Source of the DNA: Fragilaria crotonensis
Lineage: Eukaryota; Bacillariophyta; Fragilariophyceae; Fragilariales; Fragilariaceae
Assembly: GCA_022925895.1 (NCBI GenBank)
Contig: JAKSYS010000194.1
Location: 26,777-90,776 of the forward strand
Reading direction: 5' to 3'
DNA: 64,000 nt
The position numbers and the translations under genes were made by a program. Numbering within the stretch: the first letter of the stretch is position 1; every line of letters begins with the position of its first letter. The notes below the pieces were generated by a model that worked only from the letters and a program-made list of their open reading frames with translations, did no database searches and was not told the origin of the DNA. Of this stretch, positions 20,001 to 54,800 are shown piece by piece.

Positions 20001-21708
20001 GGTGTTCCTCCGGCACCGTTGTCCTCGTACCTCAAAGTAACACAATTTGTCCGAGGCATTCATTTTGAATCGTACCGGTTCAGTAGACATTGAGCATCCC
20101 AGACAAATTCGTCACGCGAGACCGAAGTGAGACTCCAATTCTTTCGATGAGCTGGCGAAAACTGACAATATGTTTCGTAAACTCAGGCGCATAGTACACA
20201 TCTGTGAAGTAAACCAACTTGCCGTCATTGTCCAACAGTGTCACCGTACCTTGTCCAAATGTCTCAATCATGTCACCGTTTCCGATTTCGATCTTGCGGT
20301 TTGATGGACGCATATCAGTCATATGACTGTTGTCGTAAGTAACGCCCGAAGTGGCACCCGAATCCAGTAACCATTCCTCGATACCATTCGTACAGGAAGC
20401 ATCCGCAGTTCCGACAAAATCCCTTGTCACGGAGTAGCCGGCATAATGATCGATAGGGTGGTTAATGACCGTAATGGTCGTAGCTCCGACAAATTTCGTA
20501 CCAGAGTCCTCCGCGACAATGGTAGGAATTTCAAAATGGGGGGATCGTGCCGTCGGACCTGACTCCAATGACTCCACATATTTCTCCAAAATCAAAAAAC
20601 TCAGAATCGTCCCAATCGTTGGTCCTGTCGCCGTTCCTCGCCTCCTGACCGCCATTGTCGTCGCCGATCTCCGTAACGAAGCGAGCGACGCCCACAAACA
20701 TAGCCATATCAGCTGTAGCTTCTTCACCCTTGACTTTATCCTTCTTGGGTTTAGGACACTTGTTAGAATAGTGCCCTTTTTCGCCGCAATTGTAGCACGT
20801 GACGTGAGACTTGTCAGCGGTGCCTTTGCCCTTTCCGGATGCGCCATTCCCTTCGGTTGCCTTCGAGGTGCAATCGGCCGCTTTGTGGCCAATCTTGCCA
20901 CAATTCCTGCAGGTTCCTTTGAACTTCTTGAATGGATGTTTGTTCGCATTCGCCAACAAAGCAGACTCCGAAGTGGACTTGCCCTTCACCTTCACCAAAG
21001 ACTTATACTGGAGAACAATCTCCTTTCTGAGCTTGGTAAGCGAAGTCTCTGCAAGTTCGCCGCGAAACTTCACCACCACCGGATCGTATCCCGAAGACAT
21101 CGCGTTCATGATGTGGGCTTTCATTTGTAGTTCGTCCTTCTCATACTTCGTGTTGATCCTGCCAATGCGCATGTTTAGATGATCCAAGTCGTTAAACCAC
21201 AACTCGGGTCACGCTTGACTTCCACCAACTTGCATGCGCTGAAAGCCTCCGCGAGATCTGGATAGTTCTCTTCCGCGTCCGTAGAGCAATACTTCTCCTG
21301 CAAGATCGTCCAAGCCATGAAAGGATCGCCGGCGCTGCGCTCAATCAAAGCGTAGGCTTTATCCGAGCAGCTAGCAACAAGGTAAGTCCAAGCGGCCGCA
21401 CGTGCGCTGTACTTCCTGTTCTCCGCAGTCGTAGGCGTACGAGTCGTCGAAGCAGCACGAAGAGGTGCTCCGGTCGCATCCACGTCACCGCCAGTCAACA
21501 GCGCGCCCAGCACGACGACTTCGCCGTTCTCGAACTCTTCAGCAGTCAACCCAGTGGCCGTAGGTGCCTTGGTGAGAGCGAGGAGGAAGCCCTTCGAACC
21601 GGCGAGAGCGATCGTCTTCCCTTCCCAGGACCTGAACTTCGTCTCATCGCCGTCGAAGGCGAATGCCCTGATCGTAGACCCGAACGTAGCTTCCTTCTGC
21701 TCTTCCAT
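17100..21708 (-). CDS. Copia Gag-Pol polyprotein (frame broken by indels)
   Basis: Order on the minus strand. Gag (from ATG 21708), with two CCHC zinc knuckles (CRNCGKIGHKAADC and CYNCGEKGHYSNKC near 20.9-20.75 kb). Aspartic protease with WLLDSGATSGVTYD (near 20.37 kb). Integrase with HGLLGHPDTRTVKAM, CGSCALAKA, the RIVDDFSKFSW catalytic strand and NTPQMNGVVERSF (19.95-19.45 kb). RT with DVEAAFLNALMDQDIFIELP (near 18.4 kb) and a YCDD box in place of the usual YVDD (near 18.1 kb). RNase H with YVDSDYAGDRNDRKSISGY (17.6 kb). The frame changes several times. The Gag shift near 21210 is explained by one missing G. With nearly identical LTRs, most breaks are probably sequence errors rather than decay. 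The end of the ORF near the 3' LTR is approximate. Confidence 0.85.
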
Positions 21709-26426: not shown

Positions 26427-28454
26427 ATTCTCCTCGCTGGAGTTCAGTCGATGTAGCCTTCTTGATATAATCTCTCTGTTTCGATTTTGAATGTTATATG
26501 AGCGTATCATTCCAACATAGTTGTCCCGCGGCGAATCCTAAAGTCTATACCACAATGGGTGCTACTGCATCAAATACTGATTCCATCGACACCAACCTTT
26601 GCGCCCGGCGTCGGCAAGACTGTAATAATGGATGTACCTCGGTACTTCCATTCCGGATTTCTCAGGACTATTGAAATGGCATGCATGAACATCTTTGCCT
26701 TGCTCCCAGGCACCGACGCTGAAAAGATTGAGTTCATGCCATGACGCCATGACACACGGGATACACACCATGCCACCTTCTGTATTGATCCGAAGACAAC
26801 TAACTGGCACTTCTTGCCGGTAGTCATAGTTCTTACTCTGTATACCTTAAATCTCCCAGCATATTTATCACTTGTCTATTTCGACCGGTAGTAGGCGAGA
26901 GCATTTCATGTTGGAGACCCCGACCGGCAAAAAAATTGCATTGTGACGTACATTTGGAGAGGCCGAGAGTCAAACCTAAGTGCATCTTGAATTTGAGGTG
27001 AAATCTCATTCGGAATAACATATAACATATAAACAATCCGTAATGAGAAGCAGAAACGATAACACAGAAGCCCTTGAAAAAAGCTGAAGTTACAGTCAAA
27101 CAGTAGTGGCATTGGTAGCCAAAGGTTTGAGACCAAAGATTGGAGTTCATGTTTCTCCTCAACACAGCAAAGGGGAAAATGAATGAATTGAGAGATATTG
27201 AACATGGTGCTACCAAAAGAACGATAGGATGAGCAGCAGTAGCCAACAAAGTTATGACCAGAAGAACAATGCATTTCCTACTCTGTAAACGACAAAGACG
27301 AGAGAAGTAATAACATCATATTGCTCTTGATTGAAAATTAGTAGAAAAATTCTCCTTGATTGGCAGTGAACCAGTGCAACTTTAGACGAAGTCTTGGTAG
27401 GAGCCAAATACATGGAGACAGCCAATGGAGGTTCATAATCCTCTGCAACACAGTAAAGAGTCGGAAAGATAAACAACCGATGAGTGGCATGCTTGAATAG
27501 TAGGAAATACTGGGATGGGTAGTTAATAAGACGTTTATGAGGATGTTGAATTGGTAACAAAACAATACGAGGTGCAGCAGCCAGTCGCCGACAAAATAAC
27601 GAACAGAGGACTAAGATGAAGAAGCAACATAATATTGCTCTTGACACGAAATAAATGTGCTTTAGCAATTCTCCTTGAAAGAGACTGAAAGATCTAGATG
27701 TTTCAAAAGAGAGGCTCAAGCCACTGCATAATCTCTCCCAATCCACCATGGTGGATTGCTGAAAACTCCTTGTGTTGATGACACTTCAAATCCCAGCTAC
27801 AAAAATGAACTTTTCCATACTACAGTAGGAGGTTTTGGGTCAATCCCAAGCTCCACTGTAATCATCCTGGTGGAACCAAGAACTCATCGTAGTATTGTTT
27901 GTCTCAACTTCAAAAGCAACTCATGGCATGTCCAAGCAAACAAACCAACGTTGTTCCCAGTTTTGCAGTTGCCAAGTGTGCATAACCAAACATTTTGATT
28001 CCTCTTTGATTTCTTTGATAGTGGGAAAGGTCTGTGATAGCTTTGGTGATCAAACCTAACAAAAGTCTTTTATCCAAGTTTCATATCAAGTTTCGCATCA
28101 CTTCCCCCACTAGTTTGGGACGATTCAAATTTCTTTATCAATAAAATCCAAAAGAATCTTCTTTGCATACTGCAGTCAAAGGATTGTGATCTTGATTTTC
28201 AATTTCTGTTTGGCATTATGGCAATCTTGTGTGTCTGAATCACAAAGGTGCATATTACATTGACGGTTGCAATCCATGCTTTCAAACTGATGAGTAGAAT
28301 TCTTACCAACTATTACGGAAACATCATAGACATATTCAATCATGCCAATGCATTGCAATCAAGATGATTACCAATGCGAATTCACAAGCTCTGTAGCATG
28401 CTTGGGAACGAGTACCGTGTCATCCTGTCATTGCATCCCAACACACATCTTGGT

Positions 28455-28602
28455 CGCAAAGTCACAAACAGACATGCACACCTGTCTGACGTGGCTAGAA
28501 TCACCTCTCTGATTAATGATGGATCTCTCGCAAAGTAACGAACAGACATGCACACCTGTCTGATGTGGCGACAATGACCTCTCTGATTAATGATGGATCT
28601 CT
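28455..28602. repeat. 74-bp tandem duplication
   Basis: Two head-to-tail copies (28455-28528 and 28529-28602), each containing acagacatgcacacctgtct and ending gatggatctct, with only a few substitutions between them. Confidence 0.9.
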
Positions 28603-28899
28603 CCAAGTATACGCTCAGACCTCAGACCCTGTTGTCTGCCCGCAACAACACAGAAGGTGAGTGTTGGGACTGCCCCTTTGGCATTTCTGATGGTCTTGGA
28701 ATAGACCAAGATATCTTTGACTCCCAGTTGACTGAAGCAAGTCTATGACATCCATCCCTCTCCTGTCTTTGGATTTTGCCTCATCATGTGCTATGCAAAC
28801 CAGCATGGTTCTTCAGAAGCAAGTGGGAAACAAGGTTAAAATGCTGTTTGCTCAGGTACCTAGTGAGGAGATCTTGTAACAATGTTCTAATCAGAGTTT

Positions 28900-35129: not shown

Positions 35130-35251
35130 TTATTGCTCCCATTACATCATTTCTTCTTTCAAAGTGAGATTGAGATCACGCAAGCACTTACTATTGCTCC
35201 CATTACCTCATTTCTTCTTTCTAAGTGAGACTGAGATCACGCAAGCACCTT
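35130..35251. repeat. 61-bp tandem duplication
   Basis: Two adjacent copies (35130-35190 and 35191-35251) sharing attgctcccattac, catttcttcttt and gagatcacgcaagcac. Confidence 0.88.
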
Positions 35252-44967: not shown

Positions 44968-45850
44968 CTAAGGTCTCCCACAACATCTGCCGCTGTGATT
45001 TCTTCTTTTCATTGTCAGTCGATTGACTATGATGAAATTGTGCAGTCTTGCACAAGTTGTCAAAATCTTGCTTGATGTTGCAAGACTCGTTTCAGGTGGT
45101 TTTCTGATGACCCTCCATTTGACAGAGTACTGCCCAAAGGCTTGCTCTACTTGTATCCTCAATTGACTGAGGAAGTAGTTGTAACAACTGTGCTGTGGAG
45201 AATTTCATTGGGAACCAGAGAATGGTATCAATGTGTGTTCGGAAATTATGTATGCATCATCAGCAACAACAAAAAATCCATGTGGCAATGAGTCAATTCA
45301 ATGTTGCAATCCAGTCAATGCAAGGGCACTGGCATCAGGATAGCTCCCGGGTGCAGCCACCGCAAAGTAGTAAAGAAATCTCCAACATGGTTTGACATAG
45401 CCTGAACATTCAGGCTATCGTGCTATAGTGGCCTGAATAGAGAGGCCAATACATTCTCTGTCTCGGCATCGGTGGGAGGTTTGATGAAGGAGCCGTCAAT
45501 GCTCCTACACAACCTCTGAAGACAGGCCGTGATGCACTGCCTCAAATTGTGCCGCAAGCAATTTCAATGCAACTATGTTGGTACTGTCTGGGAGTCTTAT
45601 CTCAAGGTCTGGGCAAGTCATAACTGCATCCATGAATTTTCCTCGAAGATAAAGTGCAATCTGCTGACACCATATACCTTTTGATATCCTGCCACTGTCC
45701 ACCTGCAAGCCATCGGAGGGACATTGCAACGACCAACTCTGGCAGAATACAACCAGCAGCACTGTCTTTCGAACACGACCGAAGGGCTTGCTTTTCATTT
45801 TCTACCAGCTTTACTCGGAGAGGTCAACCAGCTTGTTGAATGTTGATTCT
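44968..45850 (-). pseudogene. PIF/Harbinger DDE transposase (DDE_Tnp_4), decayed
   Basis: Minus-strand pieces in family order. TFNKLVDLSE and ILPELVVAMSLRWLAGGQWQDI (the conserved RWLAGG helix). LCRSIDGSFIK (first Asp of DDE). YFAVAAPGSYPDASALAL and GFFVVADDAY (second Asp), then LIPFSGSQ. NYFLSQLRIQVEQAFGQYSVKWRVI (the catalytic Glu in VEQAFG). Ending ILTTCARLHNFIIVNR. These are the hallmarks of the Harbinger nuclease. They fall in different frames and internal stops are present, so the gene is inactive as read. Confidence 0.8.
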
Positions 45851-46187: not shown

Positions 46188-46545
46188 CTCTAAACAATCA
46201 AACCTTGTTGGCTAACTAAAGAGGTAGAAATCAGTTGATTGGTGGACACGGTCTGTGTAAATTATTTGATTGAATGATCATTTCTCTAAACAAACAAGCC
46301 TTGTCAATTAAGCAAAGAGGTAGAAACTATTTGATTGGCGGACAGGGTCTGTGTAAATTATTTGATTGGATGATTACATCTCTAAATAATCAATCCTTGT
46401 CAATTAAACACAGAGGTTGAAATCATTTGATTGGTGGACACGGTCTGTGTAAATTATTTAATTGGATGATCAGGTCTCTAAACAATCAAACCTTGTTGGT
46501 TATACAAAGAGGTAGAAATCATTTGATTGGGTGATCAGCAGGTCT
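46188..46545. repeat. 96-bp tandem satellite, about 3.6 copies
   Basis: Units start with ctctaaa at 46188, 46284, 46380 and 46476, exactly 96 bases apart. Each full unit carries caatccttgt-like, aaagaggtagaaa, ggacacggtctgtgtaaat and atttgattgg words. The fourth unit is shortened and ends in gtctctagac. Confidence 0.93.
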
Positions 46546-46793
46546 CTAGACAACCATCCTCTGGATGGTATTGCCACATGGACAACGGACTACGGATGAT
46601 CGATCCGAAAGTACAAATACATCATGTATGGCAGGTTTCATGCTCAACCCTCCTAGCGTACAGCCCGGTATATTTTGTACGCTCCATACAAAATCCTAGA
46701 GTAGAATTTGAATTCCGCCAAATAATTCTGCAATCTTTTCACAAAATCGTATCCATAATTATTCATCTTCGATCTTCGCATTTCTCAACTCAG

Positions 46794-47004
46794 ATTGGAC
46801 GAAGCCACTATCAAAGTCAAGGGCGCACCTGTGGCCTTTGAAGGCTTCTCACCCTCTCAATATCGGGCGGAGTATGGTAGGATGAGCTCCTGTTTTGTTT
46901 TGTGTGATGAAATTCCAGCAACCGAGATGCACTGTCGGCGTTGGGAGCTGAGTTCGAATCTTCGAGTTCAGCTGCTGCTCGCTTCTGCACCTGATAAAGG
47001 TGGT
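46794..47004 (+). other. Candidate orphan exon
   Basis: An open stretch of coding-like composition (VKGAPVAFEGFSPSQY, ending LLLASAPDKGG) preceded by a good acceptor (ttctcaactcag) and followed by a good donor (GTAAGT at 47005). No family was recognised and no matching neighbouring exons were found. It could be a fragment of a host gene left beside the transposon. Confidence 0.2.
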
Positions 47005-47089
47005 GGTAAGTACATATCTATACACGAGCACGTGCAGCTAACTACTCAATCCTTTCTTGGTCACCACATTCACAGGACAGGTGCAGTCT

Positions 47090-49971
47090 TTACCAGCTGT
47101 TTGAAATTGTCGCGTCCTCGTTTCGAGACAGTGGCATGCGTCGGTAATATGCTTTCAAATGTGCCCAGCTGTATTCAACACCTTCGCCGGCAAGCTCAGC
47201 ATGGAACTTTGGTGTGAGAAGGACCGTCACTCCAAGTTGTGTTCCGAGAAACTGAAGAGCGGTTTCCTCTTCCTTGAAATCTCTGCAATTGCTTAATAGG
47301 CTCCGAAGTGAATACTGTAAGTCAATCTTGCCGGTAATTGCATCCCTTTGTCCATCCAAAGTGTATCTTTCTAATGCTGCTCTTTCTATCAATCCCCGCT
47401 CCCCAAGAACATGTAGAAGGCCTTTGGGTTTCCCCTCCCATCCAGGTGAAATAATTTCGTTCCGATCACATAGTCGTTCAATCTGATTGCTTCGTGCAAA
47501 ATCTTGAAGTTCTTTTTTGGTATAACCACGCTGCTGTTGAAGCATTACTCCTCTTTCTTTCAACACCTAAGGAAGCTGCTTCTTGGATCTCTCGACAAGT
47601 TTGGTCTTTCCTGTTGGACGGTTGTGTCGTTGTAAGGCTTGTTGATTAGGAGTGAGGTACCAAGGGCCTGAGTCGTCGGCCAGGAGTATCATCGATTGAG
47701 TGTCAGTCACACGCAGCTCAGGTAAGTGCGGACCGAGAAATCCTTCCTCTGCCAGTATTGTTGACTCTCTCATCATTGGTTGCGCTCCTCCATAGGATTT
47801 TGACATATGCTGTGCGCTGAGGGCGTTGTCGCGTTGTCTGGCATGTCCTCGCTTGGCTGTGATCAAACAAAAATACCAGCTCGTATTCGGGGTAGAGGAC
47901 TTGTAAGCAATCGACAACGTCTTCCAATTGAAGACTCATAAAAAACGAATTCCAATAGCCTTCGTTGTTTGCACCGATGAACAGGTATTTGACAAACGGT
48001 GATTCTGTGAAGGGCAGCTTGTTGATTGAACCGAGTACTTCCATCTCAGCGTGGGTATCAGTGTAAGTTGCTCCGTTTGTTCGTCGCTCCAAATTGATCC
48101 TCGCTAACTCATCCTCCGTCAACAGCCTTCCAAATCCGAACTCTCGCGAGACGAACGCGGACAACATGTAACCGTCACCTTCGGACTTAGGAAGCAGCGG
48201 ACGCTGACCCTTAGGTCCTACCCAAGTCTTCGCTCCCAGAAGGTATTGAGCGAAGACACTTTCGTCCTGGCCGACGATCATCATCGGTCTTGTCTTTGAC
48301 GACACTCGAATGCTGGTTGAGGGTTGGAAAGTTGTTGTCGTCCTCATCTCCTTATTTTGTATTCGATTCCAGTAATCAATATGAAATTCAAGTACTTCTT
48401 TGTTTCGGATGATGTCAAAGTAACTGTGTCCAAAGCCGATGTCCAAGCCTTTTATAGTTGTAGCTTCAGACATAGGACATTGTATCCAACGCTTACAATA
48501 TGGCTCCAATTTAGTGAGATAGGTCTCGCAGAATGTCTGTCAATTTGCAACGACATCCTCGCGTTCGCGCCCGTCAACATATAAGCTCTTGCGTCGAGCG
48601 TCGTACTTAAACTCAAGTAAACGCATCCAACGCCATGCAGTTGAAAAGCTCATTGACTTGAGTCGGTGAGCTTTTAGAAATGATTTGTTTATCCTTTCCT
48701 GGTTCTCAGGAGAAACACCAGTTCTATGCTCATTCGCAGTTTCTGATGCCGCCTCTGCCGCTTCATGTTGTTCTTCTTGACTACTTTTACTACTATCGTC
48801 GTCCTTCTTCCATTGTAAAGCCAATCTTGGAATAATGGTAGAAACAATGAGGTCAAGCACACCTTCTATTGTTAGAGTTCTTGCTAGATTTTTCACACCG
48901 AATGCAACGATTTGATCCTTTGCATCGGGAAACATTTCAAGCAGTCGTGGTAGTGGTCACTTCCCGCACTGAACATAAGCATTTGGGTGCGGGAAGCATT
49001 CCGGCTTACGGTAAATAATGTTCCATTCAGCAATGGTCCTGTAGAATGTGGCCTGGTGCATTCCAAGACCATTCAATTGCAAACATGCTTCCCTGCAGCA
49101 GTCTTGCCAAGTCCATTGGTTCATGTGTCGGAGTGCGAGTTGATAGGTCATACACAGACACGTAGCCCTTTGCCGAATCTCAAAGATTCTTTTGGCCTTT
49201 GTGCAGAAATTGTCGGGATCTCCACCCTTCACGACACAACGCGAGCTATCTTCACTCTCATAAACGGCCTGCAGCTCAGAGATTCGACGCTTTACGGCCT
49301 CCTGCTGTGGACTCTCGCTTGCAATCGTATCAGTACTGTTGCTTGTTGCTGCCGCCACAAATACTATCAATCGACAAGTCCCTTGGCGGTGTGAATAATT
49401 GGTATGCCTCAGGACTTGCAGGCCAGTATGAGCATAAACCAGAAGCACTGTCCAATCGTTGCCGCTTGTTGTTGGATTGGTGGTCATCTTCATTCGCATC
49501 GGTCTCAACACTGACACTTGTTGCAAGTACTGTTGTATAATCAACAGTATGAGGTCTTGCTCTTGTCAACGGAATGACAAGTGCATTTGCCGCAAATTTG
49601 AGCACACTTTCTTTCCAAACTTGGTTGAGGGGACAAGGGTAGGTTGCCTGTTTTGTATCTTGTGTGAAATAGTAGTAGTGATGGTGTTGGTAGTTGATAC
49701 GGAACACACCGCTCTGATTTGACCCATCAAACCTGGACATGACAGATCCAAATGCGGAAGCCATTGACATTGCTGTGTTAAATTTGCGAACATCAATCGG
49801 TATGCAAGCATCAATGTGGCCTGATTTCTGAAGTGCTTCCACCCACGTTGATGCAGGGAGCCAACAGTTTGACAATCGAGGACCGTATACAGTATCATCG
49901 CGAATCAACATAACAGCCTTGACCAAAATGGCCTGAATTCTTTTGTCAGCCATCCGTGCAATTAACCTCAC
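47090..49971 (-). pseudogene. IS630/Tc1-like DDE transposase ORF, decayed
   Basis: On the minus strand an N-terminal region (MADKRIQAILVKAVMLI, WLPASTWVEAL) is followed by a helix-turn-helix segment (MSFSTAWRWMRLLEFKYDAR) and the YVDGREREDVV motif seen in a fungal and protist group of DDE endonucleases. The catalytic core follows: MMIVGQDESVFAQYLLG and TWVGPKGQRPLLPKSEGDGY (first Asp), ELVFLFDHSQ (second Asp) and GVEYSWAHLKAYYRR (catalytic Glu, equivalent to the Tc1 NPIExxWxxLK motif). The frame contains two in-frame TGA codons (48957-48959 and 48540-48542), an in-frame TAG near 47567 and frame changes near 49.4 and 47.85 kb. It is therefore inactive. Element ends were not found. Assignment to the Tc1/mariner-IS630 superfamily is by motif. 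Confidence 0.75.
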
Positions 49972-50284
49972 TCTGTCAGTTCAATTCTTAGGGGTATTTA
50001 GAAGGCTGACATTGGGGTCAGGTTAATTGCAAGGAGTGAAGGTGTTGTGTGAAACAACATGCAATCTCATTGTGGAACGCTTGCTTCCAACACGAGAAGA
50101 TACGCTTTAGGTTCTTACGTCATATCTACAATTCTATTGGCTACACGTTCGTTTTGTACTGCGTTATGCGCCAGGTTTCTTGGGAACGAAACCTGCCATA
50201 CAAAGTTACGGATAGGAACGAAATACTTTTTGACCAGTGTACTTTAGCAGCAAAAGTACAAAAAGTACAAAAAGTACAAAAAAT

Positions 50285-50612: not shown

Positions 50613-50820
50613 AATTAGTAACGGTACTGTAGCACCATGTTTGCATCCTTCAGTACACTACTCCAGTACTCATCACCAGGAAGGTCCGGCCAAAACAAGT
50701 TCTAGCCGTTAAGCTCCGTTACCGGAGTAATTCCACGTACGCTGGCTTCCAATAACGTGTGTTGCGATATTTGTAGCTGGAACGGTTGATCCAAACGAGC
50801 CGGCAAGGTATTCTCATGCT

Positions 50821-51120
50821 AAGTGAAATTCCACTTACGGTCAGTGGAATTCCACTTACCGTAAGTGAAATTCCACTTAGGGTAAGTGAAATTCCACTTA
50901 CCGTAAGTGGAATTCCACTGACCGTAAGTGAAATTTCACTTACATAAATGTCTTCATACGGATCTGCGTAGACGACACGTGTCTCTTTCGGATTGTGAGT
51001 AAGTGAAATTCCACTTACCGTAAGTGGAATTTCACTTACGGTAAGTGGAATTCCACTTACGGTAAGTGGAATTTCACTTACCGTAAGTGGAATTTCACTT
51101 ATGGTAAGTGGAATTGCACT
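50821..51120. repeat. Double array of 21-bp palindromic repeats (6 + 6)
   Basis: Six 21-bp units begin at 50822, 50843, 50864, 50885, 50906 and 50927. After a unique spacer of about 56 bases (50945-51000), six more begin at 51001, 51022, 51043, 51064, 51085 and 51106. The unit reads about gtaagtggaattccacttac, and this is almost perfectly self-complementary, with GAATTC at the centre; variants have gaaatt or tttcac. Because 21 is a multiple of three, the minus strand stays open through everything (138 codons) as seven-residue repeats such as SEIPLTV and SGIPLTV. Whether it is transcribed is unknown. Confidence 0.95.
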
Positions 51121-51866
51121 GATGATGATCCACATGATAAACGCGCCGGCCTTGCTTTTTTCAGTTGAAAACGACTCAGCGTGGGAACGATACTCTTACT
51201 ATGATGTGTCACGTGTTCTCGGATTTTCCACGATTCCGACAGTCCGGCCGGACCTTCCAGGCATATGCATACAATGTACAATCCCACGTCTTGATCTTGC
51301 GACACGCGTTGTAATCGTGAGTTTCCATCGGACTGGTCTTGCTAATTGGCCCATTTGCGTCTTGTGTCCTGCCGTGCAGTCTATCGCTGAATCCAATTGG
51401 TCGTGGGTGTCCCGCTCCGATATCATAAGCTCTACTCTCTAGAGAGGATTCCTTATGTATGTCCATGTTTGAAGACTTATATCTCATATCCAGCATATAT
51501 ATTGATAAGTATTTCGACCAAAAAATTAATCGTGACGCGTGTGCATCTTCCCCGATAAGTGCAACCATGTCGTTCTCGAGAATTAGACTCTACGGCGATA
51601 AAGGTTGTACAGGTATACCACCAGCTCACTGTCCTTTCGTGTGCCAATGTTCCAATTGATGAGTAGGTAGGAGTGCCTACGTCACTCATCCAATCCAGAA
51701 TGTCACAAGTCACAAGCACATTGAGTCTTGGTCTTGCTTCACCATCGTAGTAAACACGAAATCTAACTGATTGGGTGATGGATGATGAGGTCATAAAATT
51801 TTAAAATACTAAGCTCTTAAAGTTGAGATAGACTAGAGACTCTTTTGCTGGTCATCGAAAACCATC

Positions 51867-54800
51867 ATGACGAAAGAAGGCGGGAAAGCTGCCGATCATC
51901 CAAGCATTAACGGATCCACCGAATTGATTGAAAATGCTGTCTCGAAGTTCCCCGTCAACGCTCGAGAACTAGGAGAACTCTCCACCGAGAGAACCCGCCT
52001 ATATCTCGCCGATGTTCTTGAGAAAGCCATGACGAGGACTGTGACGGCAGGTTCCGATGTTGAAGCGCCATCCTCGCAGGCCAAGGTTAAGTCTGATGTG
52101 TTGGCTGTGGTCAACCGCATTCGCGAGCTTGAGGCCAATGGTCGTCCAGCTGAGCACTCTCCAGAGGAGGCAGAAGCCGACAAGAAGGCAGAGATCGCTG
52201 CGAGTTACCTTGCTACGGTGTTGCTTGGTTCTAGTCCTGAAAAAGGCATTTCTCCATCTGAGGTTGAGTATCGTCGAGAAGTCTTTGGCGCGAATAAGAT
52301 TGCTGACAGAAAGCTGGACAGTTTTCTCAAACTATGCTGGGAAGCCCTCCAAGATTTTATTCTCTACATGCTCATTTTTCTCGGAGTCATCAGCATTGTG
52401 GTTGAAACCACAATTGGGTTGGAGCCAGACGAACAATGCGGGACTTGCTGGATCGAGGGAGCAGCCATCCTCGTGTCTGTTTGCATCGTTGTCCTGGTAA
52501 CTGCGGGAATCGACTACGCCAAGCAGTTCGCCTTCATTCGTCTGACAGAAAGTTTGAATGAGACGAACACCAAGTCCGTGATTCGCGACGGCATCCAGGT
52601 GTCCGTGACTGACAACGAAATTGTAGTGGGCGACATTCTTTCTGTTAACAGCCACAATCTGGCCTCGATTCCAGCTGACTGTGTCCTGCTCGGCCCAAAT
52701 GTTGACCTGAAAATGGACGAAAGCTCCTTGACAGGCGAGTCGAAGCAAATCGCCAAGAAGCCCGGTGACATCGTTCTGTCGGGAACGTCTGCCACGCAAG
52801 GCAGCGCCAAGATGGTTGTCATCGCTGTTGGTATCAACTCGGTTTCTGGCAAGATCAAGGCCCGTGTCTATGAGTCAGATAAGCACGACGACGAGCTGGG
52901 TGGGGAGGACGACAACTCACCGCTTTTCGTGAAGCTTGATTTGATTGCCAAGCAGATCGGTCTCGTGGGAACATTTTGTGCGTCCTTGGCATTCATTGCC
53001 AGCTGCGTTATCGGCTTGGGCATCAAAAAGGAGCCTGCGCAAAACGTGATTACGTATTTGATTGTTGCCATCACTGTGTTGGCTGTGTCCGTACCTGAGG
53101 GTCTTCCACTTGCAGTAACACTTGCTCTTGCGTACTCTTCTAACAAGATGATGCGCGAACAGAATTTGGTGAAGCATCTCGATGCGTGCGAGACAATGGG
53201 ATGTGCGACGACAATTTGTACGGACAAGACAGGTGCGTGGAAAGTGTCTGTAGTTGTTTGTCCAGTTCCGATGTTGCTGTGACACTCTTGTCTAACCGAT
53301 TGCTTTCTAGGTACGCTGACATCCAACAAGATGACTGCCAGAGCCATTTACATGGGATTAAAGGATTACGTCGTTAAGGATCCATCGATGAAGCTTGGTG
53401 ACTACATTAAGTCCTTCGAGGGTGGAGCAAGCGGTGCCGTGCTGGGCGTGCTCGCGAAGGTTATCGCAATTGACTCCATGGACGAAACTGTTCTCTATGT
53501 GAGTGGAGAAGGCGTAGTCGAGGGATCGAGTGGAAACCCGACGGAGGTTGCGCTCCTCGTCTTGGCTCACGATTTGGGTTTCGACTACGCTGCCATTCGC
53601 AATACGACCCGAGGCCGTTCAGACCAAGGTTCTCTCGCGGAATATCTTGGCGAAGGAAAGCAGTACGGATTTTCTTCGGCTCGAAAAATGATGAGCTGGG
53701 CTGTACCATTGGAGGGCGGTGGCTACCGTATCTATACGAAGGGAGCCCAGGAGGTGATCGTAAGCCGGTGCACGAAAATCCTCTCTCATGAAGGGGCAGT
53801 GGTTGCGCTCTCCGATGACCAGAGAGAAAGTATCGGAATGACTGGACTGTCGTACACGCGACGTGGTATGCGTTGTCTGGGTTTGGCCTATCGTGATCTT
53901 CCTGCTGGCTTCGACCTGGAGCGGGTCAGTGCCACTGTCAAGAACTCTGACGGGGCAAGTGCGTATGAGTCGGAGACGGAGATGACCTGCGTCGCCCTTG
54001 TAGGAATTGAAGATCCTCTCCGTCCGGAAGTTCCTGGTGCGATTGAGAAGTGCTATCAGGCCGGAATCGATGTACGCCTCGTTACGGGTGACAATCCTGA
54101 GACTGCAGCCAGTATCGCATACCAGGCTGGCATCCTTCGTGACGAGCACTTCATGCACAAAAACGACGATAGAGTTTCTACAAACTTGAAGCAACACGTG
54201 TTGATGGAGGGCCGAGAATTCAGGTCTGCCGTGTACAGAGTCAATGGTGAAGGCGAGAAGGAGTTCGATCAAGCAGCATTCGACAAGATTTGGCCCCGAC
54301 TTCGCGTTCTCGCCCGGAGCTCTCCGGACGACAAGCTTACGCTAGCGCATGGTCTGAACCAATCGAACTTGTTCGCGGACAAGCAGGCAGTGAAGAGTTT
54401 CCTCCATGAGGATAACATCAAGATTTTTCCGGATCGGCAGGTTGTCGCCATGACTGGAGATGGGACAAATGATGCTCCAGCGTTGAAGAGGGCTGACATT
54501 GGGTTCGCCATGGGAATCACAGGAACGCAGATTGCTAAAGACGCGGCGGATATCATTTTGTTGGACGACAACTTCGCTTCGATTGTAACTGCCGCGAGAT
54601 GGGGGCGCAACATTTATGCGTCCATTCAGAAGTTTCTTCAGTTTCAGCTGACTGTGAACATCAGTGCTGTTGTGACGGCGCTGGTTGGAGCATTTGCGTA
54701 CCAATCGAGCCCTTTGGCCGCGATCCAGCTCTTGTGGGTCAACTTACTGATGGACTCGCTTGCCAGTCTGGCTCTAGCTTCCGAGCCTCCAATTGATGCA

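Follow-up and report, generated by a model that had tools for sequence, protein, structure and literature searches.

Twelve palindromic units of 21 bp, set in two arrays of six around a short core, lie upstream of a Ca2+-ATPase gene in a stretch of 64,000 nucleotides from the diatom Fragilaria crotonensis (contig JAKSYS010000194.1, positions 26,777 to 90,776; hereafter the window). Such a layout raises two questions: what kind of element carries the array, and what the array does there. An earlier note, made from the letters alone, had offered three possibilities: a protein-binding array (an origin, a boundary or the end of a transposon), a hotspot of recombination, and a satellite of recent origin. 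Its description of the layout is borne out, the AAGTGRAATTYCACTT units following one another at a period of exactly 21 bp in both halves (Table 1). At up to three mismatches the window contains 15 matches to the unit against 1.5 expected, and 12 of these form the array. The two half-arrays are an inverted repeat of one another, 95% complementary over 103 nt, and the folding of single strands that had been anticipated is indeed predicted, at -122.5 kcal/mol for DNA as compared with -30.4 kcal/mol in shuffles (z -25).

The core, by contrast, is not the unique 56-bp sequence that it was taken for. The gap between the half-arrays measures 59 bp, and a 71-bp core query returns 23 matches in the same genome. 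A genome search for the 21-bp unit at up to one mismatch gives 409 matches against none for the reversed pattern, while the long array pattern has no match in the prokaryote and virus collections. By the earlier note, the idea of a special site would fail if the arrangement of six plus six were not conserved or if the unit were a common satellite; the outcome is split, as the unit is dispersed genome-wide but the layout is kept, with 6+6 units in most complete copies of one subfamily (A) and 7+7 in most copies of another (B).

Array and core form the interior of a non-autonomous DNA transposon (MITE), 578 bp long, that occupies positions 50680-51257 of the window. Beyond the arrays, copies on different contigs keep their similarity over about 144 bp to the left and about 138 bp to the right, where it ends. 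The element ends in a 12-bp inverted repeat, GAAGGTCCGGCC...GGCCGGACCTTC. The genome contains 493 occurrences of the 12-mer GGAAGGTCCGGC but only 11 of its reversed version, used as a control, and among those listed there are many inward-facing pairs roughly 450-630 bp apart. Comparison of 36 elements showed that one and the same base flanks the left and right ends in 33 of them, and that this position has C on its left in all 36 and G on its right in 35. The target is thus CWG with a 3-bp duplication, which is equivalent to a single duplicated W between a fixed C and G. The element is identified as a MITE by its length of 578 bp, its paired terminal inverted repeats (TIRs), the CWG duplication, a subfamily of over 20 copies whose flanks are unrelated, and an empty site for one copy. 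With its target duplications the feature reaches from 50677 to 51260, far beyond the interval first singled out, 50821-51120. A transposon had been rightly suspected, although the array lies inside a complete MITE and is not an end of one.

Table 1. Positions of the MITE and its parts in the window.
Feature	Position	Strand	Basis
Left copy of the CAG (CWG) target duplication	50677-50679	.	C ahead of the end in all 36 elements; middle base shared by both sides in 33
Whole MITE, 578 bp	50680-51257	+	Copy homology stops at the ends; TIRs; target duplication
Left terminal inverted repeat, GAAGGTCCGGCC	50680-50691	+	Copy comparison; genome counts of the 12-mer GGAAGGTCCGGC
138-codon ORF across the array	50719-51135	-	Judged a by-product
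Box GAGCCGGCAAGGT adjoining the left half-array	50797-50809	+	116-120 bp from one end in 5/5 families examined
Left half-array, six 21-bp palindromic units	50821-50941	+	Six units at 21-bp spacing
Core, 59 bp, conserved between copies	50942-51000	+	Genome core query; about 10% mean divergence in subfamily A
Right half-array, six 21-bp units, mirror of the left half	51001-51121	+	Six units at 21-bp spacing; 95% complementary to the left half over 103 nt
Box CATGATAAACGCGCCGGCC adjoining the right half-array	51133-51151	+	Detected in A, B and C but in neither D nor E
Right terminal inverted repeat	51246-51257	-	Copy comparison
Right copy of the CAG target duplication	51258-51260	.	Target comparison of 36 elements

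Insertion of these elements can be followed at several loci. The flanks of one copy (L048), joined by a single CWG, match an empty site at C818:41189-41368 in 180 of 180 bases; the empty-site counterpart of another (L044), on C295, is 97% identical, and sequences similar to the flanks of three more (L032, L038 and L043) span their junctions elsewhere. For the window copy (L031) no empty site was found in the genome, its flanks matching only themselves. At one locus (L061/L062) a subfamily B element is nested within a MITE of a further family, D. Two copies, L033 and L034, are identical in arms and core, and the window copy differs from L039 by about 0.3% over the same parts, with unrelated flanks in both cases. 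Since copies that have diverged so little lie in unrelated DNA, movement has been recent, and a source of transposase must therefore have been active recently. Some contig pairs (L049/L050, L061/L062 and L052/L053) look like two haplotypes of one locus, the flanks of L049 and L050 being 97% identical over 1.3 kb, so that copy counts include allelic duplicates. The copies come from one genome and were sampled non-randomly, by array, arm or list order, allelic pairs included.

These observations also bear on several other views of the locus. As the first genome matches gave one array per contig, a centromere, an origin or some other site present once per chromosome was considered, and was rejected because the copies have inserted into unrelated DNA, with TIRs at their ends and target duplications around them. 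The proposed recombination hotspot finds no support in a set of copies with unrelated flanks, target duplications and, in one case, an exact empty site. Nor is the array a young satellite: truncated copies aside, every array examined sits within a single element that is bounded by TIRs and measures about 350-630 bp.

At least five MITE (sub)families have in common the TIR, the CWG target, the box GAGCYGGCAAGGT and an adjoining array. The box lies 116-120 bp from one TIR in all five and the array starts shortly after it, yet the arrays themselves are of different types, with 21-bp inverted pairs in three families (A, B and C) and direct repeats in the other two (D and E). A and B are the subfamilies with AAGTGRAATTYCACTT-type palindromes. 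Family C (L069) carries inverted pairs of the form GTCAGYAA...TTRCTGAC, also at 21 bp and in two half-arrays around a core, and its unit has 182 matches in the genome against none for the reversed control. Direct GTAAGCAAA repeats at irregular spacings of 13, 17 and 21 bp make up the array of family D (L070-L074), and direct TGCTGAC repeats, spaced mainly by 10 and 19-20 bp, that of family E (L050 and L054), of which about 40 copies were scored from 126 candidates. A fixed helical phase of 10.5 bp for all arrays would suit the 21-bp families, but it fails in D. The half-arrays are mirror images of one another in A (AAATTC units on the left, GAATTT on the right) and in C, such that each faces its own transposon end alike; in B this is unclear.

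Beneath these differences a common half-site, GTMAG, or GTMAGYRAA in extended form, is clear in A, C, D and E and eroded in B; its exact form is hypothetical, since the consensus was drawn after the families had been viewed. GTMAG occurs 16-24 times per representative of A, C, D and E, compared with about 1.3-2.1 times in shuffles, and GTMAGYRAA occurs 4-14 times per element of 0.5-0.6 kb in these families, whereas the rest of the window, 63.4 kb, contains it 5 times. Subfamily B has retained AAGTGRAA and mostly lost the outer GT; its representative L058 contains two copies of GTMAGYRAA, and its GTMAG count of 5 is inside the shuffle range. Within the units of A and B, there is hardly any variation at the AAGTG and AA/TT positions, whereas the bases at positions 8 and 13, which face each other, are complementary in only 41% of the units of A and 51% of those of B. 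Independent positions with the same base counts would give about 49% and 60%. It thus appears to be recognition, and not base-pairing, that is kept. Furthermore, the half-sites of D and E run in a single orientation, as direct and not inverted repeats, and hairpins are therefore not common to the families.

The array had also been said to keep a 138-codon ORF of heptapeptide repeats open, and such an ORF is present on the minus strand. A heptapeptide repeat follows from a 21-bp period, as 21 is three times seven, and the bare unit is stop-free in some frames on each strand, so that a long ORF can arise without selection. A coding function was considered and rejected. Only 2 of the 16 copies of subfamily A contain an ORF that reaches 130 aa, frames in this subfamily being broken; most copies of B do have an ORF of more than 100 aa, but its length varies and the frame switches between heptapeptides inside the array. 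On this sequence evidence, the ORF is judged a probable by-product of the repeat. The gene next to the array is as previously described, a P-type ATPase ORF that starts at position 51867, about 610 bp beyond the MITE. The position of the MITE near this gene is one insertion among many, and an effect on expression of the Ca2+-ATPase is no more than possible.

What, then, might the array do? The best-supported function among those originally listed is protein binding, though its origin and boundary variants gain no support. The array would consist of sequence-specific sites, with a half-site close to GTMAGYRAA, for the transposase or for a DNA-binding partner of it. We put the probability that the array, lodged in the interior of a MITE, is a docking cluster for a transposition protein at roughly 0.6. 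Neither orientation nor hairpin pairing is preserved, but position and half-site are, and docking is the best reading: the families hold the TIR, the position of the box and that of the array, even as the repeat units change. The transposase sites within the tandem repeats of Galileo (PMC3688188) point the same way. The sites here could be read by the transposase itself or, as happens in PIF/Harbinger-like elements, by a separate DNA-binding partner of the Myb/SANT type. A fixed box with numerous weak sites next to it might load several protein molecules, and clustered sites might help to join the two transposon ends. In this way, the array may let a MITE without genes compete for transposase that is produced elsewhere. 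Points against docking are the start of the arrays 140 bp inside from the element ends, the near loss of the outer GT in B, the irregular spacing in D and the existence of copies whose arrays are shortened, to which comes the failure of the searches described below to find an autonomous partner. If the docking reading is right, several MITE families of one genome, in which the position of the array is kept whilst unit, orientation and spacing have changed, offer a natural experiment on the requirements of such arrays. A more tentative and rather doubtful extension is that the array is an exchangeable recognition module, the families keeping TIR, target and box but swapping or re-evolving the array together with a matching binding protein. 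Each family would then have recognition machinery of its own, and the lineage would be a PHIS-like one that targets CWG and lives outside animals.

The main functional rival is that the sites bind an anti-silencing protein of the VANC kind. In Arabidopsis, the VANDAL motifs bound by VANC build up as non-coding tandem repeats that differ between relatives (PMC5735166), a pattern that the family-specific arrays here resemble; nevertheless, gene-less elements gain less from staying open than autonomous ones do, and this explanation seems unlikely. Equally improbable is a neutral internal satellite that arose by slippage and inverted duplication in an old element and has been carried along by transposition. 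Arrays of 21 bp can slip, unit number varies (6+6, 6+7 and 7+7, together with many shortened copies, such as L066 at 354 bp), and the copies of a family would inherit one array by descent. Against neutrality speak the different arrays that in different families sit equally far from box and end with a common half-site, and also half-site bases that hardly vary next to a facing R/Y pair that does so without constraint.

That the array acts through hairpins, whether as foldback DNA or as double-stranded RNA that feeds small RNAs or marks an excision site, is very improbable. It would make sense of the very stable predicted fold and of the complementarity of the half-arrays, but it is at odds with the direct repeats of D and E and with a central R/Y pair that is unpaired in about half of the units of A and B, pairing being no more frequent than independence would give. 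Taken with an array position that is held while the unit changes, these same features favour protein recognition over DNA structure.

Among the first 100 TIR places listed, genome searches found no autonomous element with this TIR. Matches to PF13359 (Harbinger) and to two unclassified families of transposases were checked against these places, and no pair enclosed a transposase except at L054, where 7.2 kb with transposase ORFs lie between the same TIRs. This candidate parent was ruled out by comparison with the MITE at L050:1729-2245. Positions 536-7208 of L054 (C37:19690-26362) are a separate transposon of 6,673 bp, with the TIR CATCAGAAGGTGGGTTTT and a TC duplication of 2 bp, and sit inside an ordinary MITE of family E (517 bp), for which L050 supplies the empty site. 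As the transposase of L054 belongs to this other, nested transposon, it is uninformative on the MITE.

Other transposon sequences were encountered in the window and around the copies. An unclassified transposase relic at window positions 46623-50097 (minus strand) has 75% DNA identity to L054 and no informative Pfam match; its relative in L054 has no NCBIfam match, the family is present at 91 or more loci in the genome, and the protein of a copy on C363 is 100% identical to the L054 piece, within an open frame of 1077 aa. A relic of a PF13359 (Harbinger) transposase lies at 45037-45366 (minus strand). Transposase-like fragments with the motif IINIDETHHNMAITGDRGG adjoin a truncated MITE copy in L051 (1485-2317, minus strand) and belong to a family with 64 genome matches, open frames of up to 863 aa and no Pfam match. 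The window also contains tandem repeats at 46188-46530 (96 bp x 3.6), 28454-28603 (74 bp x 2) and 35131-35248 (61 bp x 1.9), and its positions 21241-21331 are 79% identical to the L054 flank (bases 7-97), probably as another dispersed repeat.

Each of the known systems to which the MITE can be compared resembles it in part. With the VANDAL elements it has in common a short motif clustered in non-coding parts of the transposon, but VANDALs belong to another transposon class, their motifs run one way and their binding protein is known. Tourist-type MITEs of the PIF/Harbinger group (PMC12595863) are likewise short, gene-less and present in many copies, with short TIRs and a 3-bp duplication. Their target is TWA, however, and the passages on them in that source describe no comparable array. 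Foldback elements and Galileo also have tandem repeats in inverted halves around a middle (PMC3688188). The repeats of Galileo contain sites for the THAP domain of its transposase, and its authors propose that binding owes its specificity to the presence of several sites (PMC3688188); as binding sites, the tandem repeats of Foldback and Phantom are described as untested (PMC3688188). In Foldback and Galileo the repeats form part of long TIRs, whereas here they start about 140 bp inside and the target duplication is CWG. With a TIR of only 12 bp, the MITE falls outside Foldback.

In its insertion the MITE resembles NuwaI, a PIF/Harbinger-like group of the PHIS superfamily, for which a 5'-CWG-3' target duplication and TIRs of 12-61 bp, usually starting with GGG, are given in the part of PMC4482050 that deals with it. 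The MITE agrees with NuwaI in its CWG duplication and short TIR, and PF13359 transposases are abundant in this genome, with at least 150 matches, although none lies between the first 100 TIR places listed. Unlike NuwaI, its TIR starts with GAA (or GGA, if one base is counted as duplicated), and the NuwaI section of that paper does not mention internal arrays. The MITE thus appears to insert as NuwaI does, and is not assigned to it. NuwaI, the known CWG-targeting group, is reported there only from animals (PMC4482050); here, a set of CWG-targeting MITEs is found in a diatom.
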